Position numbers and translations under genes: made by a program. Positions 9,381-61,530 of a DNA stretch of 64,000 nt are shown here, one piece after another (within the stretch, counting starts at the first letter, position 1; the number at the start of each line of letters is the position of its first letter). Source of the DNA: Ligustrum vulgare (Eukaryota; Streptophyta; Magnoliopsida; Lamiales; Oleaceae). The stretch is taken from contig OY743174.1 in assembly GCA_963555705.1 (NCBI GenBank), positions 61,154,234-61,218,233 on the forward strand, written 5' to 3'. The notes under the pieces are model-generated. The model worked only from the letters and a program-made list of their open reading frames with translations, did not search any database and was not told the origin of the DNA.

Positions 9381-9386
9381 AGTTTT

Positions 9387-9404
9387 TGGCGCCGTTGCCG
9401 GGGA
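9387..9404 (+). other. Primer-binding site, tRNA-Asp type
   Basis: TGGCGCCGTTGCCGGGGA, a full match to the complement of the plant tRNA-Asp 3' end, six bases after the LTR end. Confidence 0.88.
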
Positions 9405-9643: not shown

Positions 9644-11911
9644 ATGGCAGCTCATAACCTCAACAAAAGGACACTTAAACAATTGGCCACTCCAGATGTC
9701 GCTCAACAGCCACTCTGTATCACTTTTCCGACAGTGGAGGAGGGAAAAATTTTTGAACTCAAATCTGGACTCATTCACTTGTTGCCAACTTTTCGAGGAC
9801 ATGCTGGTGAAGACCCTTACAGGCATCTCAAGGAATTCCACGTGGTTTGTGACAGTATGAGACCCACTGGTATTACCGAGGAACAAATTAAAATGAGGGC
9901 CTTTCCATTCTCGTTAAAGGATGCCGCTACTGATTGGCTATACTGTTTACCATCCGGATCAGTCACCACCTGGAATGACATGAAGAGGCTATTTTTGGAA
10001 AAATATTTTCCTGCATCTCGGGCTGGAACAATCCGGAAGGAAATTTGCGGGGTTCGTCAAAACAATGGTGAGTCGCTGTATGAATATTGGGAGCGCTTCA
10101 AGAAGCTCATCTCGAGCTGCCCCCATCATCAAATCAGCGAACAACTACTGGTGCAATATTTCTACGAAGGACTGCTACCAATAGACAGAAGTATGATTGA
10201 TGCCGCAAGTGGAGGTGCCTTAATGGACAAAACACCGGAACAGGCTCGGGCTTTGATTTCCAACATGGCTGAAAAAACTCAGCAATTTAATTCAACCCGA
10301 GACTCCCAAGTCCTCCGAGTGAACGAGGTAAGTAGTTCCAATATTGAAGGTCAATTATATGAACTAACCAATCTCGTTAAGCAGCTTGCTGTAGGGAACT
10401 CGAATCAGGTCAAAGCATGCGGAATCTGTTCGAACTTTGGACATCCAACGGATACATGTCCGGTATTGCAAGAAGAAAACAATGAACATGTAAAGGCCGC
10501 AGAAGGGTTCCCATTTCAAAAACAACAATACAATCCGTACTCAAACACTTACAATCCTGGCTAGAGGGACCACCCGAACTTGAGCTATGGAAATAACAAA
10601 CCTCCGGGTTTCGTCTCCAACAAGCCTCAAGGGAATTTTCAACAACAAGGAAATTTCCATCCACAGGGACAATATCAGCAAAAGCCACAATCATCAGGTA
10701 TGTCTCTTGAAGAAATGATGAAAACTTTGGCCACTAACGCTCTACAATTTCAACAGGATACCAAATCCAGCATTCAAAACCTGGAAAATCAAATGAGTCA
10801 AATGGCCACAGCTATCAACAAACTGGAAGCACGAACAGGAGGAAAGTTGCCATCTCAACTCGAGGTGAATCCGAGGAATGTAAGTGCAATTACTCTTAGA
10901 ATTGGAAAAGAAATTGAGGCGCCACAATCAAAGCCAACCGCGAGTGAAGAGGAGGAGGTTGAAGAAAAAGAAGTCGAAAAGAAAAACAGCATTCCACAAA
11001 ACTCTCAGGTAAAAACCGAACCTATTGTGAATGCGAAACTAACTCCACCGCCTTTTCCGAGCAGGTTAGCGAAGGCGACTAAGGAAAGCAAGGAGAAGGA
11101 AATTCTGGAAATGTTCAGGAAAGTGGAAATCAACATTCCACTGTTGGATGCAATCAAGCAAGTGCCCCGATACGCGAAGTTCTTAAAGGAGCTGTGCACC
11201 AACAAACGGAAGTTGATGGGAAATGAAATGGTAAGAATGGGGGAAAATGTGTCAGCACTCTTCCAAAGGAAACTGCCCCCAAAATGTAAGGATCTAGGTA
11301 TGTTCACTATACCATGCCAAATAGGTAACACTAAAATGGATCGTGCATTAATAGATTTAGGTGCATCTATAAATGTAATGCCTAGGTCTACATACAATGC
11401 ATTGAAACTTTCCAAACTGACTGAAACTAATGTTATAATTCAACTAGCCGATTTTTCTAATGCTTATCCTGATGGGGTAGTTGAAGACATTCTAGTGCAA
11501 GTGGGCGGGTTAGTATTTCCTGCAGATTTTTATGTATTAGACATGAATGATGACCATTCCCCCAACTCTACTCCTATTTTGCTAGGTAGACCATTTCTAA
11601 AAACATCTAAGACCAAGATAGATGTTATTAGTGGTTCACTTACCATGGAATTTGATAATAAGATTATTCAGTTTAATATTTATGATTCTGTGAACTACCT
11701 TGATGATGATAATCCTGTTCATTCTTTTAATGTTATTGATTCTTCAGTACAGGAAACTTTCAAATTTGGTGGAAATGGTGGAAAGCCAGGTAAAATCTCG
11801 TGCATTACATTGCCAACTTCTGATGACATGCTTTTGCCCCCTGTCTTGAAGGCCCTGATGAAAAATATGAAAAAGAAGTTGAGCTTTGGAAATCCACCTA
11901 ATCCCGGTTGA
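9644..11911 (+). pseudogene. Gag-protease, family B, one in-frame amber codon
   Basis: One reading frame runs from 9644 to 11911 with a single internal TAG at 10562-10564. The copy at 398-2770 has TGG (Trp) at that point, so a point mutation is more likely than programmed readthrough. Order: gag capsid-like domain (YEYWERFKKLISSCPHH about 10081-10131), zinc knuckle CGICSNFGHPTDTC (about 10420-10461), basic/Gln-rich linker with a predicted coiled segment, then retropepsin with DLGASINVMP (about 11356-11385). The C-terminus ends KKKLSFGNPPNPG. The original start was probably near 9547 (MHKTRSTNPEYF), cut off by an extra T near 9590. No pol follows. It is better preserved than copy 1. Confidence 0.87.
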
Positions 11912-11957
11912 AGGAGGAAACAACAAGTCTAGCCAAAGACAGTAAACAAAGGCGCTG

Positions 11958-11975
11958 CTCGGGAGGCAACCCGAG
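11958..11975 (+). other. Conserved post-gag RNA hairpin, copy 2
   Basis: CTCGGG, loop AGGCAA, CCCGAG, starting 47 bases after the gag stop and preceded by AACAAAGGCGCTG. It is identical to copies 1 and 3. Confidence 0.65.
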
Positions 11976-12096
11976 AGGGAGTTTCTTTACTCCCTCAAAT
12001 TTTTATTTTTTTATTTTTTTTATTTTCATTTTTGTCATTTTCCTTATTATTTAATTTCATTAAAAAAAAAATTAAAAAATTTGGCCAGTAACTCAG

Positions 12097-30915: not shown

Positions 30916-33353
30916 TCGTTACAACTCTCCAATTTTAAAAGATCATTATTTAAGAATTATCACACTCGTCTAGCCATTTACAAGTGAAATTAATTTATTT
31001 TGATCCGAATCCAATTCCAAATTTATTAAAAATATCTCAATTTTCCTTATTAAATTATTTTAAGTCCAAATACGAAATTCAATTTTATCTCAAAATTTAT
31101 TTATTCTCAAATTTATTTTCGGTCCAAAATAGATTAGTTTTAAAAACATTGCCTAATCGAAGTTAGTCTAAATTTTAGTTAATTATCCTAAACTAATTCT
31201 ACCAAATTATTCCCCATGTTAGCTTCTTCTTCCTTTTTCTTTTCCACCCATTTCATCATCATTTTGTCACAATCAATCAATATACTTTACACCACTTTCC
31301 ACTTCATTCCAACATAATTCTCCACCATTCTCCCCTATATTTCATATGATTCTCCACTAACTCACAACCATCATCCATATCCCACATTCTTAAAACATGA
31401 TCATCTCAACCAAAATGTATCATGAACCCACGGTTTCACCAAACCAGCTCCCTACCTACTGCCATTCATTCTCAAACAACCACTCACCACCACCACCATC
31501 AATCAAATTGATTTCATCACCAAATCAAACCACATCACTGCCACTACCCAAACCAATTTACCAAGTTGCCACCTTCAACGCCAAATTGAATAATGAACAT
31601 CACCACCGTAACACTGCCTGCTTCACAACACATATATGATGCCACACATCCTAACTCACGACTCCAGACTGTAGGTAATTTCTCAACACTCACGACCAAC
31701 ATCACCGCCACATCTACCGTTTTACAGCCCCTTCACCGAACCAATTAGCACCTACACCAAATGGTCGAACCAAGGACCACCACCTACCTACCGCAGCACG
31801 CCACAGTCAAACCACCGCCCCTGCCCACAGCCCTTTCACCCAACCAACATGAATTTCACAAGCAAATCATCATCATTATCATCATCACCGACTGCCATTC
31901 ACCACCTCAATAGCCGGACAATCCAACACATAAGCCACTGCCCAACTCCAAAATCCCCAGTTCAAACCCAAATCAAACCTAACACCCATGAAGATCAAGA
32001 AATCGATCCATTACCTACCTCAACCGCCGGACTTTCTCCGGTTAAGCTCCAAACCGCAGCCAATAAGCCTCGGTTTAGCCATCGATTTCGCACCCAATCC
32101 CACACCAAACTCCCTTGAATCTGAAGATTCCCTTGTGCGCCGCTCGCCGCACCCTGCGACGGCGAAACCGCCGATTGGACACCAGCTTGTGCGAAGCCTT
32201 GCACCGTCGCTCTCCCATCTCCTCGTAACCACCTCTCTATCTCTCTCCTCGTTTCTCTGTTGGACCGAATGTGAGAGAGAGAGAGAGAGAGTGATTTGGT
32301 TTTTAAAATTTATTTTGTAAAACTTGCACCTTAGTCCCCAAGTTTTAAAATGTTTCAAATTAGTCATGTTAGTTTTAAAACAATCAATTCAGTCCCTTAA
32401 GTTTTTAAATGATTTTTAATCAGCCAATTCATTTTTTTTAAAATCTATTATTTGTTTTGAGTTTCAACTCAACTTTTGAAAAATTTACATTTTAGTCCCT
32501 CAAGTTGAAAAGTATTCATTTTAGTCCCTCAACTTTTAAAGTATTCATTTTAGTCCCTCAACTTTCAAATCATCAATTTCAGTCCCCAAATTGTAAATTA
32601 TCATTTTTTTAACTATGAATTTCAAAAGATTTATTTAACTTATTATTCTAATTGGCTAGACGAAGCGTACGGAGATTTGAAAGATTGAAGTAATTCCCGC
32701 TCAACCACACTCGTTAAGTTTAAGGTAGACTCGCCCCCACTAATTGATTTATATTATAATTGCATGTGTTATGTGAATTTACGTGATTATATGCTTAATT
32801 GCATATGACAAGAGTATCTCTTATGAGATAAGACAAGAGAATCTCTTATGAGATCAGAAGAGAAATTTATGTTATGTATGTCATAACTTATATGCGTTAG
32901 CGCATAAGACAAGAATATGTTCATTTGCATTCACTATGTGATGCCTATGATTAAGAAGAAAATGTCATTATATTATTTGCATAATTACGTGTTCAATTAT
33001 ATTGTAAATTAATTATTGGCGATGAGTTTACTGAGTATTTCTTTTGAAATGCTCACTCCGTTTTTAACAACATTTGCAGAGATCGGAAGCGGTGGCGAAT
33101 GATGGCAAACATTTATTTTTAAATTAATTTGAAAGTTGAGATTTTCCGAACTTGTTTATTTATCTGAGTTTTGGAATTTTATGGAATGTTTCTCAAGTGA
33201 ATTTATTTAAATGTGAGTTCCGTTGAAATTTTTCAAATGGATGTGATGTTTGGATTTTCTTAAAATTCATTTATTTCCGCAATATTTGTTAAATATATAT
33301 TTTAAAGAGAGACGAAGTAGCGTCCTGAATTTCACGGAATTCGGGGCGTTACA
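30858..33353 (+). repeat. Solo LTR of the TGTAGCGACC family (older copy)
   Basis: 2496 bp, starting TGTAGCGACC and ending GGGGCGTTACA, with perfect 5-bp duplications ATTTT (30853-30857 and 33354-33358). The ends are imperfect inverted repeats (TGTAGCGACC / TGTAACGCCC). It has the same architecture as the LTRs of the 41762-51195 element: C/A-rich U3 around 31230-32220, tandem 'ttttagtccctcaac' units (about 32490-32600), a GACGAAGCG block, and GTAGACTCGC near the end. A28 tract at 30885-30912; (GA)n near 32273. ORFs within are not genes. Confidence 0.85.
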
Positions 33354-40959: not shown

Positions 40960-41761
40960 GAAATATGATTTTGTTTAAAATGTTGATTTTAAAATTTGCT
41001 CCTTAGTCCCCGTTTTTGAAAGAGTTTTTACTTTAATCGTTTCAGGTTTAAAAGCGATTAACTACAGCCCATTGCAGCTTTTAAAACATTTATTCCCCAA
41101 ATTTTATTTTGTCACTCTATTCGTTAAATTTCAAAGTACTAAATTAATTTAACTTTTCTTTGGTTAGACGAAGCATTTGGTGAATTAAGAGATTGACGTA
41201 TTATTCTCACTCCTTCTTTTTGTGAATTAGTAAAATTGATGTAGACTCGCCCCCACTAATTAGTTTAAATTATAATTGCATGTATTATGTGAATTTACGT
41301 TATTTATGTGCTTAATTGCATGAGATAAGACAAGAACATTTCTTATGAAATAAATGAGAAATTGATGTGTTATGCATGTCATAACTTATATGCTTTATTG
41401 CATGAGACAAGACAAGAATATGTTCATTTGCACTCAGCACTCACTATGTGATGCTTATGATTATGAAAAGAATGTCACTATATTATTTGCATAACTACGT
41501 GTTCAATTATTTTGTAAATTAATTATTGGAGATGAGTTTATTGAGTATTTCTTTTAAAATGTCCGTCCCGTTATTTTAACAACATTTGCAGATCTTGGAG
41601 ACAGAAACGAATAAAGGGCAATGATGACAAATCATTAATTGAAGTTAATTTTGAAAGTCATGTTTTATGAACTTGTTAATTAATTTTGTCGTTACAATAC
41701 TTGAAAATCGAGATTTAAGGATTTCATGAATTGTTTCAAATAAAACTATTTAAATTTGAGT
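40960..41761 (+). repeat. Old LTR fragment of the TGTAGCGACC family, left piece
   Basis: This resembles 32310-33290 of the solo LTR (CCTTAGTCCCC, GGTTAGACGAAGC, GTAGACTCGCCCCCACTAAT, 'gataagacaagaa'). It lacks the 5' half of the LTR. The remaining end lies at 51201-51318, beyond the younger element, so the 41762-51195 insertion went into an older relative. Confidence 0.65.
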
Positions 41762-44463
41762 TGTAGCGACCCAAGATTTTACGCAATTAATAATTATTTT
41801 AATATTTAGAAAATTGTGTCGCTATTGTTTTGAAATTAATGCCGCGACGGATTCGTCTAGCCAAGTCAAGAAATATCGAATTTGTTCGATTTTAAATTAA
41901 AATCCGAATTTCTAAAATTATGTTATTTTAATTATTTATTCAAATGTATTTTTCAGTCCAAAATATATCAGTTTTAAATACGTTTTCAAATCAAAGTTAG
42001 TCCAATAATTAAACATAGATTCTCCACACATGTTTTTCTTTTCCACCACATTTTTATCAAACGCCAATTTTAAATCATCACCATTTCCGCCACCTTCATC
42101 CTCAAAACATCATCATCACCAAACCAACTAATTATTCCCCATGTTTTCCCACTTTTCTTAATACCTAACTATCCACATCTCTTCCTCTAATTTTATATGT
42201 TCTTCATCATGCTCATCACATCCTCACCAACTCCACCTATCACACTTTCAATCCACTATATCACCATCATTTGAATAATCAATATCTTCACCCACATCAA
42301 ACTCAATTTGCATTCTTCCGTCCTGCACATACAAACTATCATCATTATTATTATTATACCTAACAAAGAACACCACTACCAATTAATCAAAGCTATCACA
42401 ATTCAATCCTACCCCATGTGTCTACTAAACATAATGATTTTTATTCTCCATTAATCTTCTTCTTTTCCTTTCTTTTCTCCTTTAAAGATACCTTCATCCC
42501 ACCTTCATGTTTGGAATCATCAGTCTAACCACCAGCCTGCTTTGTCATTTTCAATTCCCAGCACGCCTGCAAATCTCAACTCTCTGCATGATCATCACCT
42601 CCATCACCAATTCACTACCAAGAATTTATCACCACCACTGCCAATCTAGCAACTGCAATAACCATCACCATCTTCGCAACCAAATCGCAGCCAACCCCAA
42701 ATCAAAATCAAACTCAAGAAATAGAAGAAGCCGGAACTTACCTCAGCCCCGACCCATTTCTGGCCGGATCTTCGCCGACGAAACTCCAAAGAAATCACGA
42801 ACCCAGCTCCACTTTTAACCTCGGTTTTTCACAACAACAAAAAATCTCGCACCTAAACCCCTCAAGCTTGAACACATCCTCGACCCCTACTCCCCGCATT
42901 CTGGCGCCGGCGAACTGTCGGCTGTGACACTGGTTTCTTCCATTTTCCACCGTCGGTCGCGAACCTCCCTCTCTTTCCTTCGATCTGAAATTTGGTAGAG
43001 AGATAGAGTAATAAAATCGTTTTTAATAATTGTTTTGATTTTCAGATTTTGCAAACCAGTCCCCAGCCTTCTAATATGATTTTATTCCAGTACCAAGTTT
43101 TGCTGATTATTTATTTCAGTCCTTCAGCTTCTAAAACTGTTTATTTTACTCCTTGCTGATTTAAATCATTTGATTATAAATCCCAAGTTTCAAAAGTATC
43201 TATTTTAATCCCTCTATTTTCAAAATATCTATTTTAGTCCCTGAACTTTCAAAAGTATTCATTTTAGTTCCTCAACTTTCAAAACATCAATTTTAGTCCT
43301 CAAATTATAATTTATCATTTTGAACTATATATTCGATATACTAAAGTGACTTATTGGCTAAGACGAAGCGTACGGAGAATTCAAAGAAATTGAAGTCATT
43401 CCCGCTCAACTTTGCACTCGTCGGATTTGAGGTAGACTCGCACTTATTAATTGATTTAAATTATGATTTCATATGAATGTCATGTGACTTGTGAAAGTCA
43501 ATTTTTAAGAAAAGCAAGTATGTTTTTATGAAAGGTAAATATACCTTATGTTTTTATGAAAAGTAAGTATGTTTTTATGAAAAGAAAATATACTTTATGT
43601 TTTTACGAAAAGTAAGTATACCCTATGCTTCACGAAAATGTTTTTTTGGATCATTGCTATGAAATCAATCTACCAAGATTGTTATGGGTCCCATATGATA
43701 AGTTATGATATGTTAAGGGGACCGGAGTTTTAGTAGCGCTACACATAAGAATTCTTGCCACGAAGTTCGGTAACGTTCTTGTGTCTCTTATGTTTATGAG
43801 AATTTCAATCCTATCTTATGTTATGCTTTCAAAAGAAATTATGCTTGGCATAATTAAAATGTTTTTATAAGTATATGGTTTTCAAAGAGCTGTTTTCAAA
43901 GAGTTATTTTCAAAGAGCTTATGATTTGCAAAATATGTCCTGTGCTGTAATGCACAATATGAATTTTATCAAGAGCCGTTTTATAAAGAAGCTCTATCAA
44001 TGCCCGTTTTATAAAGAGCCGGGATTTATGTGTTTAATCATCTTATAAATTAAATTAATTTGCGATGAGTCTACTGAGTATTTCCTCCATGAAATGCTCA
44101 CCCTACTTTTTAACAGTTTTGCAGATTTCGGAGACGGTGGCGAGCGATGAATGATGGTGGCAATAATCGTTAAACGGTTGAAAGTTTGACGTTAATGATT
44201 TCCGTATTTTTTCCAAACAATCGAATAATTTAGAGAAGTTCATTTATTTGAGAAATTATGACATTATCAATTTCTTTACAAAATTAATGGTTCGATTTAC
44301 TATTTCAAATGGTTTCATAAATGTTTCAATTTTATCGGCCATTACAGTATATTTAATGTTGCCAAAAATGAATTTCAATTATTTCTTCCGCAAAAATATT
44401 ATTCGAAAAATTTAGACAGAAAATGACATAGTGAATCGGGTATACGGAACTCGGGGCGTTACA
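41762..44463 (+). repeat. 5' LTR of the LOG-carrying element
   Basis: 2702 bp, TGTAGCGACCC...CGGGGCGTTACA. It contains a C/A-rich region (42030-42720), tandem 'attttagtccctgaac' units (about 43195-43300), and one copy of a repeat with TTGCCACGAAGTTCGGTAAC (about 43755) that is expanded in the 3' LTR. A 103-codon ORF at 42507 is present in both LTRs only because the LTRs are identical; it is not considered a gene. Confidence 0.93.
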
Positions 44464-44466
44464 AGT

Positions 44467-44478
44467 TGGTATCAGAGC
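44467..44478 (+). other. Primer-binding site, initiator tRNA-Met type
   Basis: TGGTATCAGAGC, complementary to the 3' end of plant initiator tRNA-Met, three bases after the LTR end. Confidence 0.9.
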
Positions 44479-45780
44479 TAGTCTGCGTTTCTGTAGACTG
44501 GTAAAATTTTCAAAAAGAATTTTCAAGAAATATTTTCATTATAAGATTTTTATTGATGAAGATTGCCACTACCATCATTCGTTCCACCAACTCCGAGGTA
44601 AAGAAGTTTATGATGTTTAAAGTTATTTCAGTATTTCGAATACTCATTTTATTGATTTATGAGAAAGAATGAAGAGTATTTCGGATACTTATGATTTATG
44701 AGAAATAAGAATGTATTTCTTCGAAAATAATGATGTTGTTATGCTTTGTCATAACTTATATGCTTTAATGTATGATTATGAGAAAAAAAATTTTAGAAAG
44801 AAAACGAGTGTTGAGCATAATGGGAATAATATGATTTAAGAATGATTTTTAAATAATTTTTGTCCTCGAGTTAGAACCCTAGATGGACTTTGCATAATTG
44901 ATTTTAGACATGGCACTAAGTATGAGAAGTCAACAGAAAGGATTTGATTATATTTTCAGATTATTTATCGTTTAGATTTAAACGAGAAATAGCAAGCCAG
45001 TTATGAAGTTGTGATAAGATGTTAAGATTATAACTGATATGATTTTATTGAGAATTAAGTAATGGATATTATGTTGAGTAAGTGAATTATTTCCTCTATT
45101 TTGAAGAGAAATTTATTATGAAGTTTGGCCTTGTGAATATTTTGGGAATATGATTTATGGCATATATTTATAGGTATGAGTTATCTTTTGAGCCATTAAG
45201 GTATCGAAGGAAGTGATATTGTGATATTGAAAAATATAATTTGAAATTGTTATGTTGAGGAATTATGAATTGAATTATGGGATATTTTTGATGATATTGA
45301 AGTGTTGGAATCATTTTCAATATTTTTAGATCGTTGTGATCAAATGTGGAGTTATTTATTATTGTGAGTTATGAAGTATGTTTATGGTTTGGAATAAGTC
45401 CAAATTACAAGGGAGACTCTGTCCAGAATTTTATCATTTGGAATTAAGAGCATAATATGATAAGCATCTACTAAAGGAATTAAGTTTAGACATGCAAGAT
45501 CATTTACATCACAAACGAGATTTAGTAGCTGATAGCAGAGATTTTATTATTTTCTCATAAGGAGAACACACAAGAGTCACACTGTAAAGGAAATACATGA
45601 AACACACGAAAGCATAAGAGAAAAACATGGAAAGATCCTCAGAATGAGAGATGTGTTTCCGGAGTAGCCGTATCCTACCACCTCTGATCTTTTGAGGAAA
45701 TAAAGAAACCTTCAAAGAGGTGTGTTTCGAGAGTAAGAATACTCCGTAATCTACCACCTGGAACCTTTGAGGTACACACA
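44479..45780 (+). other. Non-coding interior, left part
   Basis: About 1 kb of AT-rich sequence where gag would be expected; ATGAAGATTGCCACTACC near 44557 could be a remnant of a gag start but the frame closes soon after. From about 45651 three imperfect repeats lie downstream of the LOG gene on its strand (45651-45697, 45719-45773, 45815-45860), each with ATACTCCGTA-like and CTACCACCT-like text. They may belong to the 3' untranslated region of the antisense transcript. Confidence 0.5.
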
Positions 45781-45868
45781 AGATTTAAACATTAAGGAAA
45801 TCCTAGTAAATGGAGGGGTGTCTCGAGAGTGAGAATACTCCGTACTCTACCCCCACCTATTCTAAGAT

Positions 45869-46522
45869 TCACAGAGTTAAATTTACATTAACCGGACTCC
45901 ATTTTCGCTTGATTCCCCTTCCTTGCGACCAATTTATCTTAACTCCTGCTGGATCTTGTATTGAGATATATGACTGCAGCTTATCCAGTAGTTCATCAAT
46001 GGTAGGAGCAGAAATAAGGAGCCTTCTGGAAAATGGAGAGATGAATTCCTGTTCCACAGCATAATCAAGAAAGGTTAACAAACCATCAAAAAAATTGTTA
46101 ACATTCAGAAGCCCAATAGGCTTAGTATGGAGATCTAGTTGAGCCCACGAGGTAATGTTAAAGATTTCTTCTAAGGTACCAAAACCTCCGGGCAGGGCTA
46201 TAAAGGCATCAGAACCATATAGCATACAAGTTATGCGTTCATGGATGGATAAGGTTTGAACTTCATGCCCTCGTGTTTTGCCTGCAACATCTACCAAAGG
46301 GACAGGTATGACACCGATTACTTTTGATTTCTCTGCAAGAGCAGATTGGGAAACACAACCCATTAGACCACTGCTACCACCCCCATATACAAGAGTGATA
46401 CCTTTTTCCCCCAGTTTCTTTCCAAGATCTACAGCCGCTTCTAGATAACCGAAGCCTTTCCCCACTTTTGATCCACAAAATACACAAATAGTTTTGATTT
46501 GTCGAAGTTTTGGTGCTTCCAT
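45869..46522 (-). CDS. LOG-like: LOG-family cytokinin riboside 5'-monophosphate phosphoribohydrolase, intronless, inside retrotransposon
   Basis: 217 codons, intact, starting MEAPKLRQIKTICVFCGS. LOG enzymes release active cytokinin bases from riboside monophosphates in one step, in cytosol and nucleus. Visible signatures: CVFCGS near the N-terminus, YGGGSSGLMG (residues 46-55), GVIP, and the phosphoribosyl-binding PGGFGTLEE (111-119), then TSWAQL, KPIGLLN, FISP, SAPT. The length is normal for the family (about 215-240). Ahead of PGG the usual H-x-R-K-x-x-M reads HERITCM: Arg kept, Lys replaced by Ile, so activity is uncertain. Plant LOG genes usually have several introns; none is seen here, suggesting capture of a processed transcript. 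It runs antisense to the retrotransposon, downstream of the ORF at 46822-47388, with its own TATA-like site in between. Confidence 0.88.
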   Translation of the reverse strand: MEAPKLRQIKTICVFCGSKVGKGFGYLEAAVDLGKKLGEKGITLVYGGGSSGLMGCVSQSALAEKSKVIGVIPVPLVDVAGKTRGHEVQTLSIHERITCMLYGSDAFIALPGGFGTLEEIFNITSWAQLDLHTKPIGLLNVNNFFDGLLTFLDYAVEQEFISPFSRRLLISAPTIDELLDKLQSYISIQDPAGVKINWSQGRGIKRKWSPVNVNLTL

Positions 46523-46597
46523 CTTTGATAGTATAGAAGAGAAAACTTACGAAGAAGATGTGATTTTGGGATGCCTGAACTATGAAATATGTTTGGC

Positions 46598-46605
46598 TAT
46601 TTAAA
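46598..46605 (-). promoter_or_regulatory. TATA-like element upstream of the LOG gene
   Basis: On the minus strand TTTAAATA sits within GGCTTTAAATAGCC, about 76 bp before the LOG start codon. The 46523-46821 spacer then reads like a short plant promoter and leader (pyrimidine-rich CTTCTTCG near the start). This suggests the LOG gene can be transcribed on its own rather than only from the LTR. Confidence 0.45.
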
Positions 46606-46821
46606 GCCGGAAAAATTTACTGTTTTTGATTGATTCTGAAAAAGTAAAGATTTACTTTTGACAAAATCAGCCCACTTTTGAATATTTTTATCGTATCGAG
46701 GCTGTCACCTTTCGGCGATTTAATATTTTATTTCCAGCTTTATCAAACCTCGAGAAAGGAAAATATATTTTATTTTCAAAACGCGTGAAAGAAAGCAGCA
46801 AAATATTTTAAAAGATTTACC

Positions 46822-47388
46822 TTATATCATTGCTGAACTGCCAGAAGCCTCATTTTGTAAAACAGACTGGCAAACAGGATCTTTTGCTATTATATTTTGG
46901 AGACTATAACGATTTTTGTCCTCGTTAAACTGAGCGTATAAGGAGAGAAGTTCACGTTGCACATAACCACTTGGGTGCGTCTCAAGAGTCAGTCGAATAT
47001 CATCCAAAGACTCCTTACTCAGTCCACCCTTTATGAATTCGATTTTATCATCCCGATTAGTAGAAGAATATCCTACTGATTTGCAACGAGTATTACAGTT
47101 CCATCGAGCACATTTATAGCAACCACCCAGTCTTTTTGCTCTTCGTTTCTTTGCAAACGTGCTTTTGCCTAAACCAGGCATGTGCTTTGGAAATGTTGAT
47201 GGTAATTCACCAGATAGTCGAACCTTTGCTTCTATCAACCAGCGAACATCTTCTGGAATATCATGAGCCATCAGCAACCTCAATCTTTCGAGCCTTATTT
47301 TATAGATCTTTCTCAGATCATTCATAGGAAGACTGGAATAATACTTGCGAATGTTAGAAAGAATGATATCCATTGTTTGATGATTCAA
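46822..47388 (-). CDS. Basic Cys-rich protein resembling plant-virus nucleic-acid-binding proteins (NABP-like)
   Basis: 188 codons, intact, start MNHQTMDI. Residues 1-70 are helical, charged and unassigned. Residues 76-90 contain STFAKKRRAKRLGG, a strongly basic patch, followed at once by a putative zinc site C90-x2-C93-x4-C98-x3-C102 and, later, a DDKIEFIKGG segment. A basic patch running into a small Cys cluster with a following charged FxK/EG segment is characteristic of the small 3'-proximal nucleic-acid-binding proteins of Betaflexiviridae (vitivirus/carlavirus type), several of which act as RNA-silencing suppressors. The C-terminal 60 residues are acidic and Ser-rich. It lies 299 bp upstream of the LOG gene on the same strand. 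The viral link is a recall-based resemblance, not a search result; a plant zinc protein of unknown family is the alternative. Confidence 0.5.
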   Translation of the reverse strand: MNHQTMDIILSNIRKYYSSLPMNDLRKIYKIRLERLRLLMAHDIPEDVRWLIEAKVRLSGELPSTFPKHMPGLGKSTFAKKRRAKRLGGCYKCARWNCNTRCKSVGYSSTNRDDKIEFIKGGLSKESLDDIRLTLETHPSGYVQRELLSLYAQFNEDKNRYSLQNIIAKDPVCQSVLQNEASGSSAMI

Positions 47389-48158
47389 CCTCTTCCCAGC
47401 ATGAACTATTTAAAAGCATTAAGGATCTGAGTGAATCCGCGTGATTTTGATTTCCAGCAAGAAAGCAGGGATTATTTTTATGAAAAGAGGAGACAGAGTT
47501 AATGCGGTGTTAATTATATTGATAAAGGAGATTTGATTGGAGATTTGGAATATTTTCTTGGATTATGGGTACTGATATTTTGTTATAATAATGATAATCA
47601 TGGTATAGTGTGATGATACGTGGAAAGTAAAATGAGTACCGTATTGAATCAGAATTCATACGTATATACAAGTGAAAGAAATACTTTGCAGGAAATGTAG
47701 TGACATTTAAGTAAATAATCTTAGTTTGGGAGATATTTGTTTACTGAATTTTTGGGTTACAAATATTGGAAAGATAAGTTAATGATATTATGTTGATATG
47801 TCAGTAGAGATTTGTTGAAATTTTAGAGATATATACGAATATTTGAGGTCACATGATACGATGATAAGTGACATGTTACATGAATACTACAAGATATGAT
47901 GAAATATCACATACGATTGGGAATTTTCATTTTGATTCAGAAGAATTTATGAGTAGACACATATGTCTATAGAAAAGTCCATGTCCTAAGAAAACAAATT
48001 GATGCATTTAGTCAAAGTCCAGTAGGTTAAATATGGTTGGGTTAAATATGGTAGCGATGATGCTACATAAGAAGAAGAAGATTCTGATTAAGTATTCAGA
48101 AATCATAAGATCAAGTAAGTTTAATTTCGAGGACGAAATTATTTTAAGGGGGTAAGAT
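47389..48158 (+). other. Non-coding interior, right part, ending in polypurine tract
   Basis: About 750 bp AT-rich with no pol remnant. It ends TTCGAGGACGAAATTATTTT then AAGGGGGTAAGAT (48146-48158) directly before the 3' LTR. The left part should hold the promoter of the NABP-like ORF (minus strand); no clear TATA box was picked out. Confidence 0.55.
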
Positions 48159-51100
48159 TGTAGCGACCCAAGATTTTACGCAATTAATAATTATTTTAAT
48201 ATTTAGAAAATTGTGTCGCTATTGTTTTGAAATTAATGCCGCGACGGATTCGTCTAGCCAAGTCAAGAAATATCGAATTTGTTCGATTTTAAATTAAAAT
48301 CCGAATTTCTAAAATTATGTTATTTTAATTATTTATTCAAATGTATTTTTCAGTCCAAAATATATCAGTTTTAAATACGTTTTCAAATCAAAGTTAGTCC
48401 AATAATTAAACATAGATTCTCCACACATGTTTTTCTTTTCCACCACATTTTTATCAAACACCAATTTTAAATCATCACCATTTCCGCCACCTTCATCCTC
48501 AAAACATCATCATCACCAAACCAACTAATTATTCCCCATGTTTTCCCACTTTTCTTAATACCTAACTATCCACATCTCTTCCTCTAATTTTATATGTTCT
48601 TCATCATGCTCATCACATCCTCACCAACTCCACCTATCACACTTTCAATCCACTATATCACCATCATTTGAATAATCAATATCTTCACCCACATCAAACT
48701 CAATTTGCATTCTTCCGTCCTGCACATACAAACTATCATCATTATTATTATTATACCTAACAAAGAACACCACTACCAATTAATCAAAGCTATCACAATT
48801 CAATCCTACCCCATGTGTCTACTAAACATAATGATTTTTATTCTCCATTAATCTTCTTCTTTTCCTTTCTTTTCTCCTTTAAAGATACCTTCATCCCACC
48901 TTCATGTTTGGAATCATCAGTCTAACCACCAGCCTGCTTTGTCATTTTCAATTCCCAGCACGCCTGCAAATCTCAACTCTCTGCATGATCATCACCTCCA
49001 TCACCAATTCACTACCAAGAATTTATCACCACCACTGCCAATCTAGCAACTGCAATAACCATCACCATCTTCGCAACCAAATCGCAGCCAACCCCAAATC
49101 AAAATCAAACTCAAGAAATAGAAGAAGCCGGAACTTACCTCAGCCCCGACCCATTTCTGGCCGGATCTTCGCCGACGAAACTCCAAAGAAATCACGAACC
49201 CAGCTCCACTTTTAACCTCGGTTTTTCACAACAAAAAAAAATCTCGCACCTAAACCCCTCAAGCTTGAACACATCCTCGACCCCTACTCCCCGCATTCTG
49301 GCGCCGGCGAACTGTCGGCTGTGACACTGGTTTCTTCCATTTTCCACCGTCGGTCGCGAACCTCCCTCTCTTTCCTTCGATCTGAAATTTGGTAGAGAGA
49401 TAGAGTAATAAAATCGTTTTTAATAATTGTTTTGATTTTCAGATTTTGCAAACCAGTCCCCAGCCTTCTAATATGATTTTATTCCAGTACCAAGTTTTGC
49501 TGATTATTTATTTCAGTCCTTCAGCTTCTAAAACTGTTTATTTTACTCCTTGCTGATTTAAATCATTTGATTATAAATCCCAAGTTTCAAAAGTATCTAT
49601 TTTAATCCCTCTATTTTCAAAATATCTATTTTAGTCCCTGAACTTTCAAAAGTATTCATTTTAGTTCCTCAACTTTCAAAACATCAATTTTAGTCCTCAA
49701 ATTATAATTTATCATTTTGAACTATATATTCGATATACTAAAGTGACTTATTGGCTAAGACGAAGCGTACGGAGAATTCAAAGAAATTGAAGTCATTCCC
49801 GCTCAACTTTGCACTCGTCGGATTTGAGGTAGACTCGCACTTATTAATTGATTTAAATTATGATTTCATATGAATGTCATGTGACTTGTGAAAGTCAATT
49901 TTTAAGAAAAGCAAGTATGTTTTTATGAAAGGTAAATATACCTTATGTTTTTATGAAAAGTAAGTATGTTTTTATGAAAAGAAAATATACTTTATGTTTT
50001 TACGAAAAGTAAGTATACCCTATGCTTCACGAAAATGTTTTTTTGGATCATTGCTATGAAATTAATCTACCAAGATTGTTATGGGTCCCATATGATAAGT
50101 TATGATATGTTAAGGGGACCGGAGTTTTAGTAGCGCTACACATAAGAATTCTTGCCACGAAGTTCGGTAACGTTCTTGTGTCTCCTATGTTTATGAGGAT
50201 TTGCCACGAAGTTCAGTAAAATTCCTATGTTCCATATGTTTATGAGGATTTGCCACCTAAGTTCGGTAAAATTCCTGTCGCATATGTTTATGAGGATTTC
50301 GATCCTATCTTATGTTATGATGCAATTGATCCCTATGAATTTCAAAAATTATGCTTGGTATACTTACTACATAAGAATTCTTGCCACAGAAGTTCGGTAA
50401 AATTCTTATGTTTATGAGGATTTCGATCTTATCCTATGTTATGATGAAAACTTACTGTTATTATGATTTTACTGCATAAGAATTCTTGCCACCTAAGTTC
50501 GGTAAAGTTCTTGTGTCTCTTATGTTTATGAGGATTTCAATCCTATCTTATGTTATGCTTTCAAAAGAAATTATGCTTGGCATAATTAAAATATTTTTAT
50601 AAGTATATGGTTTTCAAAGAGCTGTTTTCAAAGAGTTATTTTCAAAGAGCTTATGATTTGCAAAATATGTCCTGTGCTGTAATGCACAATATGAATTTTA
50701 TCAAGAGCCGTTTTATAAAGAAGCTCTATCAATGCCCGTTTTATAAAGAGCCGAGATTTATGTGTTTAATCATCTTATAAATTAAATTAATTTGCGATGA
50801 GTCTACTGAGTATTTCCTCCATGAAATGCTCACCCTACTTTTTAACAGTTTTCCAGATTTCGGAGACGGTGGCGAGCGATGAATGATGGTGGCAATAATC
50901 GTTAAACGGTTGAAAGTTTGACGTTAATGATTTCCGTATTTTTTCCAAACAATCGAATAATTTAGAGAAGTTCATTTATTTGAGAAATTATGACATTATC
51001 AATTTCTTTACAAAATTAATGGTTCGATTTAATATTTCAAATGGTTTCATAAATGTTTCAATTTTATCGGCCATTACAGTATATTTAATGTTGCCAAAAA

Positions 51101-51195
51101 TGAATTTCAATTATTTCTTCCGCAAAAATATTATTCGAAAAATTTAGACAGAAAATGACGTAGTGAATCGGGTATACGGAACTCGGGGCGTTACA
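48159..51195 (+). repeat. 3' LTR of the LOG-carrying element, with expanded minisatellite
   Basis: 3037 bp, 335 bp longer than the 5' LTR. The extra length lies at about 50170-50520, where a unit containing TTGCCACGAAGTTCGGTAA and TATGTTTATGAGGATT is present four to five times (partly nested in a larger unit with CTACATAAGAATTC) against once in the 5' LTR. Elsewhere the two LTRs are almost identical. Confidence 0.92.
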
Positions 51196-51200
51196 TGAGT

Positions 51201-52974: not shown

Positions 52975-53045
52975 TATAGGCCCTTTTGGGTTATTCCGAT
53001 TGCTTTGGCAGTCAGCTTCGATTCTTTCTTCACAATTTTTCAGAA

Positions 53046-53988
53046 TGAGATTCCAGTCGGGGAATCTCGTCGAAAACGCGGAATAACGAAATTTAAAATC
53101 TAGGAAAGATCTAGATCAGATTTAAACACGAAATTAAACAAAAATTAAACTACTGGAAAGATAAAATTGACGATAGGACCTTGACCCAAGATTCACGACG
53201 CAAGAAATTGACGATGCGGAATCGAGATCCAAGGTTTTCGTAACACCACAAGGACTTGTCAATTTCCTTGATAAGATTCTAATTGGAAACGCCACAAATA
53301 TTCTCGCAAATATTTGATAAGTTCAACGCCACAAATATTTTACAATATTTGATAAGTTGGATTTGTCCTCGAAGAACACCAAAGGGACTCCTCAACCTTT
53401 CAATTGGAGAAAACTCTCTCAACTATATTAATCTCAATACTCAAACTAAACTAAATTGTTTTTTACAATGAATGGAAAAATATATATATATTTATAAGCA
53501 AAATAACCTAGTTGCTAATTTACTCAAAATAGAATTCTAATTATACTAAAATTCTAAAATAGGAAAATAACCTAAAAACCAAAAAGGAATTAAAATAATT
53601 ATGAAATCCCGCAAAATCTGGTCCGCTCCTCATTTACGGTCGTGAAGAATAACGTTACGGCCGTAAAGGCCTCTCGGGTCCAAAACTGCTTCAATAGTTA
53701 CGGTCGTAACTTTCAGACTTACGGCCGTAAGCCTGGTTCTGCTGAAATTCTGCATTTTCCCTCGATAGTTGATTACGGCCGTGATTAAATGAGTTACGGT
53801 CGTGAAGGATTTCAATTACGGCCGTAATGCCTTTTCTGTACCAATTACTTCGATAACTTGGCTCGGCTTGATCTGTCCCTCTTCTCGGCTCGACCCCAAC
53901 ATAGAACTTGCTCCGTTTTGCACGTAGATCATTGTCATATTGCCGATGGCTCGACTTCGCCCTCCGATGCCTGGTCCGGATCATATCA
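53046..53988 (-). repeat. 3' LTR (minus) of the chromovirus-like element
   Basis: 943 bp; plus strand TGAGATTCC...CATATCA, minus strand starting TGATATGATCCGG. A long TATATA stretch near 53480-53505 (minus TATA box) follows the array on the minus strand. Very close to 55794-56751. Confidence 0.88.
53634..53827 (-). promoter_or_regulatory. TTACGGCCGTAA array in the chromovirus-like 3' LTR
   Basis: Seven copies, some TTACGGTCGTGA-like, start at 53634, 53655, 53698, 53719, 53773, 53794 and 53816: steps of 21, 43, 21, 54, 21, 22. The first pair-to-pair step is 64. The spacer 'gctgaaattctgca' is the complement of the 'tgcag...cagc' spacers in family A/B. On the minus strand it lies upstream of the TATA stretch. 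Confidence 0.78.
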
Positions 53989-54002
53989 TACTCCCTCCCT
54001 TG
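53989..54002 (-). other. Polypurine tract (minus) of the chromovirus-like element
   Basis: Minus strand CAAGGGAGGGAGTA directly before the LTR start TGATATG. Confidence 0.8.
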
Positions 54003-54375
54003 AAAAGGATTCGACCTCGAATCCAACTTTGGTCGGCTTTTCAAACTCGTTCTGCTTTTTTGGGCTCGATGATCATGTTTATGCCTCGTGCTTGTTTTCA
54101 ACATTTTGGACTGCCCCATTTTTCTCCTTCAACTTTCTCGGCCTTTTGGGCTGCTCATTTGTGCCAACAAGTTTTTTTCCTGTTTTAAGCTCATGGTTTG
54201 ACTTCGGTACCTGTAAAACAGATTTTAAAGAACTGAGGAGTGGTGTGTTAGCGTGAGTAAGTGCAAATAGACTCATTTTTGTGGTAGACTCTCTTTTCTT
54301 TTGATTTTTGCACTCAGTCTCTCATTTTTCTGAAGTTTGAACTTCAACCATCTTTTTTTTATTTCTCACTCTCTC
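54003..54375 (-). other. 3' untranslated part of the chromovirus-like element
   Basis: Between the gag-protease stop and the polypurine tract. The upstream end still shows decayed repeats of the GAAGTTCAAACTTCAGAAAA / GAGGTCGTGGCCTCA type that continue the C-terminal repeat of the ORF. No RT or integrase fragment. Confidence 0.5.
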
Positions 54376-55410
54376 TCATTTTTCTGAGGTCGTGGCCTCA
54401 ACTCTCTTTTCTTTAATTTCCACACCCTCTCCTTTTTCTGAGGTCATGGCCTCAACTCTCTTATTTTTCCCCTCAAACTCACTTTTCACTTTCAATTGAT
54501 CTTTTAGGGCTTCAGTTGGAGATAGTGGCATTAGAGTAAACTTTTTTCCCCCTTTTACCAGGCTGTATCTATTCGTATACTCATCATGTAGCACAGCCTT
54601 TTCATGCTGCCAAGGTCTCCCCAACAGTATGTGACTAATTTGCATTGGTACCACGTCACAAATTACCTCATCCGAATACCCACCAAAAGAAAATGCCACT
54701 AAAGTCTGTCTCTTCACCTTAACTTCCCCTGACTCAGTCAACCATTGTAATTTATAAGGCGTTGGATGTTTCGTTAAAGGTATGCCTAATTTTTCCACCA
54801 ACATTGTACTAACTACATTAGTACAACTTCCCCCGTCAATCACCAAGCTACAAACTTTTTCATCCACTAAGCATCTAGTGCGAAAAATATTATCCTTCTG
54901 TTCATCCACGTTACCCACAACATCCACCTTACGTCTAATGCTAAGAGCATGCTTATCAATAATTGACTCATCCACCACAACACTTTTCGCCCCTTCACTA
55001 TCACCCCTAACCTTTTTACGTGGACAATCAAGTGCAATGTGACCCCGTTCCAAACATTTAAAGCATTTAACATTTTTATCCTTAAGATGCTTGGAATCAG
55101 AATTATTTTTACCTTTGGTTGTCGATTCCTCTCTCCTTTTGTGAACATGATCACCACTCTCCCGTTTTGATGTCTCTTTTCGCTTCAATGTCCTTTCATC
55201 ACCCCCATCTCCACCTCTAGAATTGGCTTCACGCCCCTTATGCCTCCTAGCCCTAGAATCCGCTTGATGTTGCTCCTTTTCCCATTGAGCAAGTTCTGCT
55301 TCCCTTCTATCCATCCTAGCCATCAATCTCTCAAGTTTTACCTTCATGGCCTCCATCTGTTTAAAATTCTTGTGGTCACCTGTTGATAGAGATTTTTCCC
55401 TACGAGACAT
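54376..55410 (-). CDS. Zinc knuckle-protease polyprotein lacking the capsid domain
   Basis: 344 codons, intact, start MSRREKSLST. Residues 15-50 are a predicted coiled coil typical of the very N-terminus of chromovirus polyproteins; then a basic, charged linker, zinc knuckle CFKCLERGHIALDC (116-129), and a retropepsin-like domain with the common plant variant IDGGSCTNV (191-199) and ILLGRPW further on. The normal capsid-coding stretch between the coiled coil and the knuckle is missing without breaking the frame, and coding stops after protease in an imperfect repeat (KRVEAMTSEK / KRVEATTSEK). It is open despite having no pol, so it may still be made. Confidence 0.85.
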   Translation of the reverse strand: MSRREKSLSTGDHKNFKQMEAMKVKLERLMARMDRREAELAQWEKEQHQADSRARRHKGREANSRGGDGGDERTLKRKETSKRESGDHVHKRREESTTKGKNNSDSKHLKDKNVKCFKCLERGHIALDCPRKKVRGDSEGAKSVVVDESIIDKHALSIRRKVDVVGNVDEQKDNIFRTRCLVDEKVCSLVIDGGSCTNVVSTMLVEKLGIPLTKHPTPYKLQWLTESGEVKVKRQTLVAFSFGGYSDEVICDVVPMQISHILLGRPWQHEKAVLHDEYTNRYSLVKGGKKFTLMPLSPTEALKDQLKVKSEFEGKNKRVEAMTSEKGEGVEIKEKRVEATTSEK

Positions 55411-55776
55411 GGTTAGTTTTCAAAGACAAACAAAAATTCCTCACGTGTTTATTTTCACTCGTGTATCACACTCAATCCCTTCAAATTTCACCCAAAAACA
55501 AACCAAGGATCAACAATCAAGGAATTTATGGAAGATACGAAAAGTAAAAAATTAAGAAATTCTCGGAATATTCGATTTTTTTTTAATCTGCCAGAAAATT
55601 TGACTACGAGTATGGCAGAAAAAAAAACGAAATTGGATTTGGACGAGAAACGAACAAGAAAAACACTTTTGAATTTTTGGGACTGACTCTTATGGATCAA
55701 ACTGAAAAAAAAAATTTATGACTGACACGAAGAACAAGAAAATATCAAGAATACCAAGAACTGAATCTAGATCCAA

Positions 55777-55788
55777 GCTCTGATACCA
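55777..55788 (-). other. Primer-binding site, initiator tRNA-Met type (minus)
   Basis: Minus strand TGGTATCAGAGC, five bases after the 5' LTR end (TCTCA at 55798-55794). Confidence 0.88.
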
Positions 55789-55793
55789 GATAA

Positions 55794-56751
55794 TGAGATC
55801 CCAGTCGGGGAATCTCGTCGAAAACGCGGAATAACGAAATTTAAAACCTAGGAAAGATCTAGATCAGATTTAAACACGAAATTAAACAAGAATTAAACTA
55901 CTGAAAAGATAAAATTGACGATAGAACCTTGACCCAAGATTCACAACGCAAGAAATTGACGATGCGGAATCGAGATCCAAGGTTTTCGAAACACCACAAG
56001 GACTTGTCAATTTCCTTGATAAGATTCTAATTGGAAACGCCACAAATATTCTCGCAAATATTTGATAAGTTCAATGCCACAAATATTTTCACAATATTTG
56101 ATAAGTTGGATTTGTTCTCGAAGAACTAAAAGGGACTACTCAACCTTTCAATTGGAGAAAACTCTCTCAACTATATTAATCTCAATACTCAAACTAAACT
56201 AAACTATTTTTTACAATGAATGGAAAAGAATATATATAAGCAAAATAACCTAGTTGCTAATTTACTCAAAATAGAATTCTAATTATACTAAAATTCTAAA
56301 ATAGGAAAATAACCTAAAAACCAAAAAGGAAATAAAATAATTATAAAATTCCGCAAAATCTGGCCCGCTCCTCATTTACGGCCGTGAAGAATAACGTTAC
56401 GGCCGTAAAGGCCTCTCGGGTCCAAAACTGCTTCAATAGTTACGGCCGCAACTTTCAGACTTACGGCCGTAAGCCTGGTTCTGCTGAGAATCTGCCTTTT
56501 CCCTCGATAGTTGATTACGGCCGTGATAATAGCTTTTACGGTCGTGATTAAATGAGTTACGGCCGTGAAGGATTTCAATTACGGTCGTAATGCCTTTTCT
56601 GCACCAATTACTTCGATAACTTGGCTCGGCTTGATCTGTCCCTCTTCTCGGCTCGACCCCAACATAGAACTTGCTCCGTTTTGCAAGTAGATCATTGTCA
56701 TATTGTCGATGACTCGACTTCGCCCTCCGATGCCTGGTCCGGATCATATCA
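55794..56751 (-). repeat. 5' LTR (minus) of the chromovirus-like element
   Basis: 958 bp, partner of 53046-53988 with few differences. Its palindrome array (about 56376-56590) has eight copies, one more than the partner, gained or lost as a single unit of about 21 bp (TTTTACGGTCGTGAT near 56535). Confidence 0.88.
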
Positions 56752-58850: not shown

Positions 58851-60750
58851 TAAATGACAGGAGAAGATGACCTTTTCGCTTTAAACCTTTTTGGATGAAG
58901 GAATCTGGTTATGATGAGGTGGTCTGACAGTGTTGGGAGGAGGACCATATTAGTAATACCGGGGATTCTTCTTTGAGGTGCTTTCAATCCCTTTTGGGTG
59001 TATGTAGTCAGGGTTTGCAGTCATGGCATCAGAGTAAGTTTGGCAGTTGGAAACGAAAACTCAGAACACTCAGAAGACAACTTAGTGAACTTTATGATTA
59101 TCCAGAAAGTAGGGACCGTATGGAGGAGATCAAAGACTTGAGGGAGAGGTCATTTTGCTCTCGTACAGAGAGGAGATATATTGGAAACAAAGAGCCCGAG
59201 CGGACTGGTTAAAGGAAGGGGATAGAAACATTAAGTACTTTCACTTAAAAGCTACAAGCAGAAGGCCGAAGAACCTCATTGAAAGACTTCAGAATGCAGA
59301 TGGAAATTGGGTCTCAGGTCAGGGAACAATCACAGCAGTTGTGGAGGAATATTTTCACTCTCTGTTTACAAGTTCGAAGCCGACTCAAGAAATGTTGGAT
59401 GCAGGAGTTAGAGGGGTAGAGCGGGCTCTTTCAACTGTGGATATGGGATTTCTTGACAGACCATTTGATGCTTATGAGGTTCAAGCAGCTCTCAAAATGA
59501 TGGGGCCACTTAAAGCACCAGGACCTGATGGATTTCATGCAACTTTCTACCGGTGACATTGGGAACTCATGCATGATTTCATTACCCAGGTATGTTTGGA
59601 TGTATTGAATGAAGGGAAACCTCTCGATTCTTTGAATGATACTAACATTGTGTTGATCCCTAAAAAGAGAACACCAAAGTCGATAAGGGACTTCCGACCG
59701 ATCAGCTTATGTAATGTCATTTATAAGCTTATCTCCAAAACAATAGCTAATCATGTTCTTCCAAGCTTAATTTCGGAAAACCAGAGTGTTTTTGTGCCAG
59801 GCCGTCTGATAACTTACAATGCAACTGTGGGGTTTGAATGCATCCACTCAATGAACTTGAAAACGAAGGGGAGAAAGGGTTATCTGGCACTCAAACTTGA
59901 TATGAGCAAAGCTTATAACAGAGTGGAATGGGAGTTTATTCTCGCAGTGATGGAAAAAATGGGGTTCTCAAATAAGTGGTAGAATTTAATCATGAATTGC
60001 ATGAGCTCGGTGAGATTTAGTTTTCTTATTAATGGATGTGTCCGAGGACGGGTGGTGCCTTCCAGGGGACTTCGACAGGGATGTCCGCTATCTCCCTATC
60101 TATTTTTGCTTTGGGAAGAAGCTCTCTCTGGCTTGTTGATGCTTGGTGAACGGGAGAGTAATTTGGAAGGTTTTCAATGTGCAAGGGGTGTCCTAAGAAT
60201 TAATCACTTATTCTTTGCAAATGACTCTATTACCTTTCTCCGATCCCATGTTGCAGATTTCCATTCACTATTACAAATTTTGGATTGCTATGAACAAGCC
60301 TCTGATCAGCAGATTAATTTTGAAAAGACTTCTACTTTCTTTAGCCCAAACGTATCCCCCTCACTTCAGAGTGAGCTTAAAGATCTTTTAGGCGTGAATT
60401 TGATTGGCCTTCAGGGAAACTACTTGGGGATTCCAACGACAGTTGGGAGAAATAAGAGATAGTCTTTCTCTTCAGTTAAGGAAAAGATCTGGAAGCGGGT
60501 GAAGGGATGGAAATCTGGCCTATTTTCAGCAGAAGGGCGAGAGGTGCTGGCTAAGTCAGTTCTACAGGAAATTCCCACTTATATCATGAGCATTTTCGAA
60601 CTTCCAAGTTCTCTTTATCATGATATCCATGCTATGATCCGTGATTTTTGGCGGAGTGGTTGGAGCTCTGGAAAGAAGATTCCTTGGATTAGATGGTCCA
60701 AACTATGCGAACATAAAGTGAAAGGGGGGACTTGGCTTTCGAGATCTTGA
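58851..60750 (+). pseudogene. LINE ORF2 reverse transcriptase domain
   Basis: Blocks in order: WLKEGDRNIKYFHLKA (about 59205), LKAPGPDGFHATFYR (ending 59553), IVLIPKK and [15 protein letters not shown] (about 59700-59740), [30 protein letters not shown] (about 60067-60108), and the catalytic box. That box reads FAND (60214-60225) where active enzymes have [FY]ADD, so one metal-binding Asp is lost. Stops at 59554, 59980 and 60460 separate the pieces. Confidence 0.85.
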
Positions 60751-61530
60751 AAAGAGGATTGAGATGGAGAGTGGGTGATGGCAAGCATGTCAGAATTTTT
60801 TGGGATCCTTGGTTGCCTCGATCAGAAACTTTTTTGCCTTATACTCCACAATCAGATAGGCTTTCTCATGTGGCAGATTTAAGATTGGCCTCAAGTGACT
60901 GGAACTTAGAGCTCATTCTTTCCATTTTTTGGCGGATTGATGTAGATCTTATCACTTCCTTGCCCATTGGTTCTTGTAATCAACAGAACAAAATTATTTG
61001 GCATTATGAATCAAACGGGAAGTACTCTGTAAAAAGTGGATACAGGGTGGGGGTTGGTGGTCATCGAGAAATGGTAGAGAAGTCGGGGGGAGACAGGTGG
61101 TGGAAGTTATTATGGCACTTTCTGACTCCTCCAAAGGTAAGGGTGTTTATTTGGCGACTATTCTTGGACTCACTTCCCATTGGACAGAATTTGGTTAGGA
61201 GATGCATTCTATCTGAAGGGCAGTCTCGCTGCCGAGCGTGAGGGGTGGTGAACGGGGTGCATGTCATTTTCCTTTGCCCTTTTGCTCGTCAAGTTTGGAA
61301 GGCTATTGGTATGTGGACGGAGTTGAAAGAACTGGCAGGTCCGGTAACATTAAATTGCTACTACGTGAGTTGGCACAGCGGAAGTCCCCTGATAAATTGG
61401 GATGGCTATGTGGGGTTATGTGGATTATTTGGGGTGAACGGAACCGTGTTATTCATGGGAGCAAGAGGAGAACAATAGAGGTGCAGGTGGAGGTAGTGCA
61501 AGGACAATATGATTGGGGTTAGAATTGTAG
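60751..61530 (+). pseudogene. LINE ORF2 linker and zf-RVT-like domain
   Basis: 60732-61241 encodes RVGDGKHVRIFWDPWL, a GKYSVKSGYR block, then LWHFLTPPKVRVFIWRL and LPIGQNLVRR, the zinc-binding RT-associated region common in plant LINEs. The usual CxxC..H..H part is frame-broken around 61240-61290. Confidence 0.75.

Follow-up and report, generated by a model that had tools for sequence, protein, structure and literature searches.

Introduction

Extra open reading frames (ORFs) in antisense are known from plant Ty3/gypsy long terminal repeat (LTR) retrotransposons; the published sections on Retand, Grande and Ogre describe them, with TRP28 in Retand and PMD in Ogre (PMC11963269, PMC7264820, PMC6317226). 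In its section on such domains, PMC9289625 reports that Gypsy consensuses of two Citrus species, and when unfiltered of Populus trichocarpa too, contain a YgdH (LOG) domain; it calls this in line with Steinbauerova 2011, and places an AlkB m6A demethylase in Ty3/gypsy elements of two Phalaenopsis species. Here we describe a stretch of 64,000 nucleotides from Ligustrum vulgare (assembly GCA_963555705.1, contig OY743174.1, positions 61,154,234 to 61,218,233 of the forward strand), called the window below. In it, a complete LTR element at 41762-51195 carries two minus-strand genes, one LOG-like and one that we term NABP after the nucleic-acid-binding proteins of flexiviruses. The account that we favour, with modest confidence, is that this is a non-autonomous LTR element carrying an old Ty3/gypsy accessory cassette, NABP–LOG, in antisense.

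Results

A young LTR element without gag-pol

The element has everything by which an LTR retrotransposon is recognised: LTRs of the form TG...CA, a target-site duplication (TSD), a primer-binding site (PBS) and a polypurine tract (PPT). The initial annotation had called it complete, and TSD, PBS and PPT were indeed all found:

41757..41761, TSD TGAGT, left copy
41762..51195, complete LTR element, reading on the + strand
41762..44463, + strand, 5' LTR, 2702 bp, TGTAGCG...CGTTACA
44464..48158, element interior, 3695 bp, between TGTAGCGACCC LTRs
44467..44478, + strand, PBS TGGTATCAGAGC, tRNA-Met type, beginning after 3 bases past the 5' LTR
45869..46522, minus strand, LOG-like gene, 217 aa plus stop, intact
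46822..47373, minus strand, NABP gene, 183 aa plus stop, intact
48146..48158, + strand, PPT AAGGGGGTAAGAT, abutting the 3' LTR, with TTTCGAGGACGAAATT just upstream
48159..51195, + strand, 3' LTR, 3037 bp, TGTAGCG...CGTTACA, 335 bp longer than the 5' LTR
51196..51200, TSD TGAGT, right copy

From the positions of PBS and PPT, the element is read on the + strand, which makes both ORFs antisense. The LTRs differ by 9 substitutions over 2701 aligned bases (Kimura two-parameter distance 0.0033) and by one 335-bp length difference; an earlier description of them as near-identical holds for the substitutions and fails for the indel. At rates that we assume to be 0.7-1.5e-8, the insertion would be 0.11-0.24 My old. 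The length mismatch was seen between 43774-44463 and 50152-51195, 335 bp despite just 9 point differences. A tandem array at 50152-50299 was listed for the 3' LTR only, not for the 5' LTR.

As claimed before, gag-pol is missing: no such ORF was found in the interior among stop-to-stop frames of at least 80 aa or by Pfam scan. Frames of this size comprise LOG, NABP, three that overlap them (84, 80 and 87 aa) and one of 91 aa, for which a Pfam match was absent at E <= 1. The interior thus lacks the gag-pol with reverse transcriptase, RNase H and integrase that would mark an autonomous Ty3/gypsy element, and the integrase of a relative matched nothing in the window at E <= 0.01. The stretch 41762-51195 is a young non-autonomous LTR element.

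These same features can be read differently. A Ty3/gypsy accessory region may have been picked up backwards, e.g. by template switching, with ORFs that are open only through youth and an element that gains nothing from them. The absence of gag-pol, the antisense orientation and the low LTR divergence, which left little time for decay, all favour this explanation. It is opposed by the completeness of both ORFs and by their order, which is that of other genera (below). We consider it possible, though not likely.

The left flank (41075-41602) and the stretch 31057-33104 match the element's LTR in pieces at 66-79% identity; in the same comparison an LTR match was absent from the right flank. Because the left-flank pieces match its LTR, the element probably inserted into a related LTR of greater age.

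We take PBS TGGTATCAGAGC to be complementary to tRNA-iMet. Priming by tRNA-Met is also used by Ty1/copia lineages. The PBS fits the tRNA-Met priming of chromoviruses (Tekay-like), in an element without pol by which to place it, and we presume that the 3' end of the element is likewise Tekay-like. Non-chromoviruses reportedly do not use a tRNA-Met PBS, according to the relevant section of PMC6317226. The tRNA-Met PBS thus makes chromovirus-type (or Ty1/copia) proteins the probable agents that moved the element in trans.

The second gene resembles flexivirus nucleic-acid-binding proteins

The initial annotation described two open minus-strand ORFs and left the second without a name. Both are intact and LOG has 217 aa, as it said; the second ORF has 183 aa plus a stop and not 188 codons. 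By profile and motif, we identify this ORF as a homologue of flexivirus nucleic-acid-binding proteins. Its product has a basic patch (KKRRAKR) ahead of a CX2CX4CX3C cluster, and it matches PF05515 (Viral_NABP) at 3.4e-7 with 30.9 bits (curated cut-off 23) and PF01623 (Carla_C4) at 5.1e-6 with 26.8 bits (curated cut-off 20.9). Homologues numbered 352 at E <= 0.001, and the genera among the 120 listed include Orobanche, Striga, Populus, Xanthoceras and Acer. The cysteine cluster is present in 105 of these 120, with the basic patch at most 10 residues before it in 94. When the window protein was aligned with 89 of the 120, PF05515 was matched by 79 and PF01623 by 75 of the 90 members (E <= 0.001).

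Searches further afield gave little. The best PDB match of NABP had an E-value of 0.28, and the NABP profile matched nothing there at E <= 1. Phage records held no NABP match at E <= 1e-5. Three of four scans of viral contigs returned no relative; the fourth, with the LOG alignment, returned 24 distant LOG loci of 24-41% identity.

NABP and LOG are paired in other plants

To search for the pair, a fused Orobanche model was used as query, and domains were taken from precomputed Pfam annotation. A single gene model held both NABP and LOG domains in 22 of 120 listed clusters; three Orobanche species account for 20 and Citrus for 2. In a direct scan, three Citrus models showed both domains, with scores below the curated cut-offs, and all three align to both window ORFs. 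The Acer model P0292 also aligns to both, with Pfam detecting only its LOG part. A motif script run over 296 proteins found both regions in 18, and NABP came first in all 18. With chromosome-sized records set aside, LOG and NABP matches fell on contigs of exactly equal length above 3 kb in two cases (8723 and 4511), which is no more than suggestive.

Trees were built from rows hand-picked from the listed matches (48 for LOG, 47 for NABP). The LOG tree places the window with P0001, P0004, Diospyros P0005, P0006 and Orobanche P0259 (support 100/100), the last on a very long branch (2.93). P0001 is a separate record whose LOG is 92% identical to that of the window and of equal length. Arabidopsis At2g37210 and At5g11950 (which we take to be LOG3 and LOG8) and bacterial LOGs lie among the other 42 rows, apart from the window clade. 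In the NABP tree, the window falls with P0123 and with Orobanche and Striga rows in a 14-row clade (100/98). A second Orobanche pair, P0265, stands outside the window's clade in both trees. The best reading of these sequence comparisons is an NABP–LOG cassette of considerable age, present in both asterids and rosids.

This bears on two alternatives. The initial annotation had proposed that a processed transcript of a host LOG gene was recently captured. An uninterrupted LOG ORF and its homology to plant LOG would fit such an event. The LOG tree and the presence of the NABP–LOG pair in other genera oppose it, as does the earlier report of LOG in Citrus and Populus Gypsy elements in a section of PMC9289625, and we now regard recent capture as very improbable. 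The backward pick-up of an accessory region is in turn disfavoured by P0001, with its closely similar LOG of unchanged length in a separate record.

An NABP gene beside a Ty3/gypsy integrase

A scan of contigs from bacterial and archaeal genomes yielded a single relative, L025, among 83 pattern matches. L025 (3330 bp) is filed under a Candidatus Nomurabacteria metagenome-assembled genome (MAG); it is probably a plant contig that contaminates the MAG. As an observation in its own right, positions 104-2347 of L025 place a Ty3/gypsy integrase plus NABP within a public Candidatus Nomurabacteria MAG.

The integrase of L025 matches PF00665 and PF17921 in a frame that ends at 1594; a chromodomain was absent among its matches at E <= 0.01. 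NABP follows at 1799 on the same strand and is 67% identical to the window NABP. A LOG search of L025 found no match; the contig ends 983 nt past the NABP stop. By eye, the sequence just past this stop resembles the NABP–LOG spacer of the Acer model, a likeness suggesting that in some of these elements the two genes both lie in sense. L025 also looks Athila-like by eye. Set against the tRNA-Met PBS of the window element, this suggests that the cassette probably resides in more than one element lineage. The sense orientation of NABP behind the integrase does favour the backward pick-up considered above, since the antisense state may be derived.

The LOG-like gene and its C-terminal tail

The LOG ORF matches PF03641 at 3.7e-33 and, in the PDB, 2a33 (Arabidopsis At2g37210) at 2.4e-56. 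It retains PGGFGTLEE, one of the LOG signatures noted at the outset, as well as IHER, and ends in KRK followed by VNVNLTL. PF03641 together with PGGxGTxxE is the sequence signature of LOG phosphoribohydrolases; by family, the product would be a cytokinin-activating enzyme, and catalytic activity is predicted. The notion of a mobile hormone-activating gene, also raised in the initial annotation, is plausible, since a young gag-pol-free element carries an intact antisense LOG.

We examined the best 120 of 7128 LOG matches, which are the nearest relatives and not a sample of all LOGs. After basic residues, 96 of the 120 end in an LxLxL tail (12.5 expected from shuffled tails), and LxLxL occurs elsewhere in 3; PGGxGTxxE is retained in 106. 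We take the tail to resemble the EAR repressor motif. The corepressor TOPLESS binds LxLxL.

These tails raise the alternative that the LOG fold is kept as a nuclear adaptor, bringing in a corepressor of the TOPLESS type through its basic patch and EAR-like tail, with cytokinin activation as a secondary function. The excess of LxLxL tails fits this idea, as do 17 Orobanche P0259-type LOG models picked by hand from the fused-model search: 12 lack PGGxGTxxE, and LxLxL is kept in 13, including 10 of those 12. Retention of PGGxGTxxE in most relatives and in the window LOG, whose own tail is VNVNLTL, argues against it, and so do Orobanche P0265 and P0268 (P0265-type), which keep PGGxGTxxE and lack the LxLxL tail. 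On balance we rate the adaptor as unlikely. From its sequence, the EAR-like tail suggests that in some lineages the protein may act in the nucleus, either in addition to catalysis or in its place. The departure of the window tail from LxLxL would also suit an accessory region picked up backwards.

Separately, Orobanche models such as P0241, P0243 and P0259 represent a group of LOGs whose catalytic motif is altered (PGGYDTLNE in 7 of the 17 examined) and in which an LDLSL tail is mostly kept.

One further feature lies beside the gene:

45640..45854, minus strand, imperfect repeats 3' of LOG on its strand, with 42-nt copies at 45717 and 45813, 88% alike

By eye, one more and weaker copy was made out near 45640. 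RNA structure in these repeats was considered and rejected (z -0.16, -1.77 and -1.15, not clearly better than shuffles).

Candidate antisense promoters

A TATA-like word precedes each gene:

47407..47414, minus strand, candidate antisense promoter for NABP, TATA-like word TTTAAATA 41 nt before its ATG
46598..46605, minus strand, candidate antisense promoter for LOG, TATA-like word TTTAAATA 83 nt before its ATG

Nowhere else on the element's minus strand does TTTAAATA occur. When the interior was simulated 3000 times (first order), the word, itself picked post hoc, never came to lie at most 100 nt upstream of both ATGs. The position of TTTAAATA before both genes suggests separate antisense transcripts, which we offer as a lead; it also counts against ORFs that are mere backward cargo.

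Other repeats in the window

Two Ty3/gypsy gag regions were found at 535-2717 and 9506-11911 (Retrotrans_gag, about 1e-21). The repeats that bear them, 130-2891 and 9267-12032, are 79.5% alike and Athila-like by eye. Another element probably lies at 53044-56751, with repeats 53044-53988 and 55792-56751 (93.8%); a minus-strand ORF inside it matches an aspartyl protease and, weakly, a zinc knuckle. At 59113-61241, consecutive + strand ORFs resemble, by eye only, a broken non-LTR retrotransposon reverse transcriptase.

Discussion

What the cassette might do for the element can be sketched from the gene families. NABP and LOG proteins would be made from short antisense transcripts, each starting at its own TATA-like box. 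Viral cysteine-rich proteins act as silencing suppressors, and one viral protein of the NABP kind is a transcription factor that induces hyperplasia, according to the section of PMC12172455 on these proteins. By analogy, NABP could damp RNA silencing or reprogramme host transcription, and LOG could raise active cytokinin locally; such silencing suppression and cytokinin benefit are what the gene families would lead one to expect. Expression of the element would thus fall in dividing cells of the meristem or germline lineage, in which a new copy would be passed on.

A wider form of this proposal is tentative, and we think it rather doubtful. It holds that a conserved virus-like cassette, made of an NABP-kind silencing suppressor and a LOG with a nuclear repressor-type tail, brings cells into a permissive, dividing state from which new copies enter the germline; that non-autonomous elements move the cassette alone; and that RNA viruses and retroelements exchanged the NABP gene.

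Constraint on NABP can be judged from the window and L025 copies, which give a dN/dS of 0.18 over 171 codons. This demonstrates long-term constraint at the sequence level. With dS at 1.39, near saturation, it does not show constraint on the window copy, and this is the first of several points that weigh against the old-cassette account. In the fold search with NABP, ranks 1-3 of 22 were viral NABP/silencing-suppressor proteins, with non-significant E-values (0.65-2.9) and a weak model (pLDDT 70.6, pTM 0.35). The VNVNLTL tail shared by the window LOG and P0001 misses strict LxLxL and so is not an EAR motif, and the loss of PGGxGTxxE from most Orobanche P0259-type LOGs means that catalysis is not universally kept. 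In the LOG tree, Arabidopsis and bacterial LOGs stand amid other rows of element type and adjoin Acer P0292 and Xanthoceras P0098, so the tree does not establish a single capture of LOG. Finally, the canonical words TATAAA and TATATA occur at 5 other minus-strand sites of the interior, none at most 160 nt upstream of either ATG.

How plant retrotransposons evade silencing long enough for inheritance is an open question. If the old-cassette account is true, the conserved NABP–LOG pair would be an accessory system for silencing escape that is concrete and can be tested, and it would link RNA-virus counter-defence to retroelements; it might also explain part of the multi-copy 'LOGL10-like' genes annotated in plant genomes. 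A literature search, with subscription journals mostly outside its coverage, gave no report of NABP or of an NABP–LOG pair in retroelements among the matches listed.

Several known systems invite comparison. Like flexivirus cysteine-rich proteins and NABPs (PF05515, PF01623), the window NABP has a basic patch and a zinc-finger region and scores above the profile cut-offs; unlike them, it sits in an LTR element and is paired with LOG, and the likeness is to profiles, not to single viral sequences. We know of no relation between VANC proteins and NABP. VANDAL elements (PMC5735166, PMC10398659) do resemble the window element in being plant transposable elements that encode an anti-silencing protein, a role that is putative here, whereas VANC proteins are sequence-specific proteins of DNA transposons.

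Closer parallels come from retrotransposons. The extra ORFs of Retand (TRP28), Grande and Ogre (PMD) also lie outside gag-pol, often in antisense and in distant species, and nucleic-acid binding has been proposed for them; among the domains named in the relevant sections are TRP28, PMD and Smc; NABP and LOG do not appear there (PMC11963269, PMC7264820, PMC6317226). In contrast to those elements, the window element has no gag-pol and its PBS is of the tRNA-Met type. It shares a LOG domain with the YgdH-bearing Gypsy elements of Citrus and Populus, although the section of PMC9289625 on these elements makes no mention of NABP, the pairing, the orientation or the C-terminal tail. The AlkB elements of orchids carry a different gene, but they too hold a gene type that the same source notes in both flexiviruses and Gypsy elements (PMC9289625).

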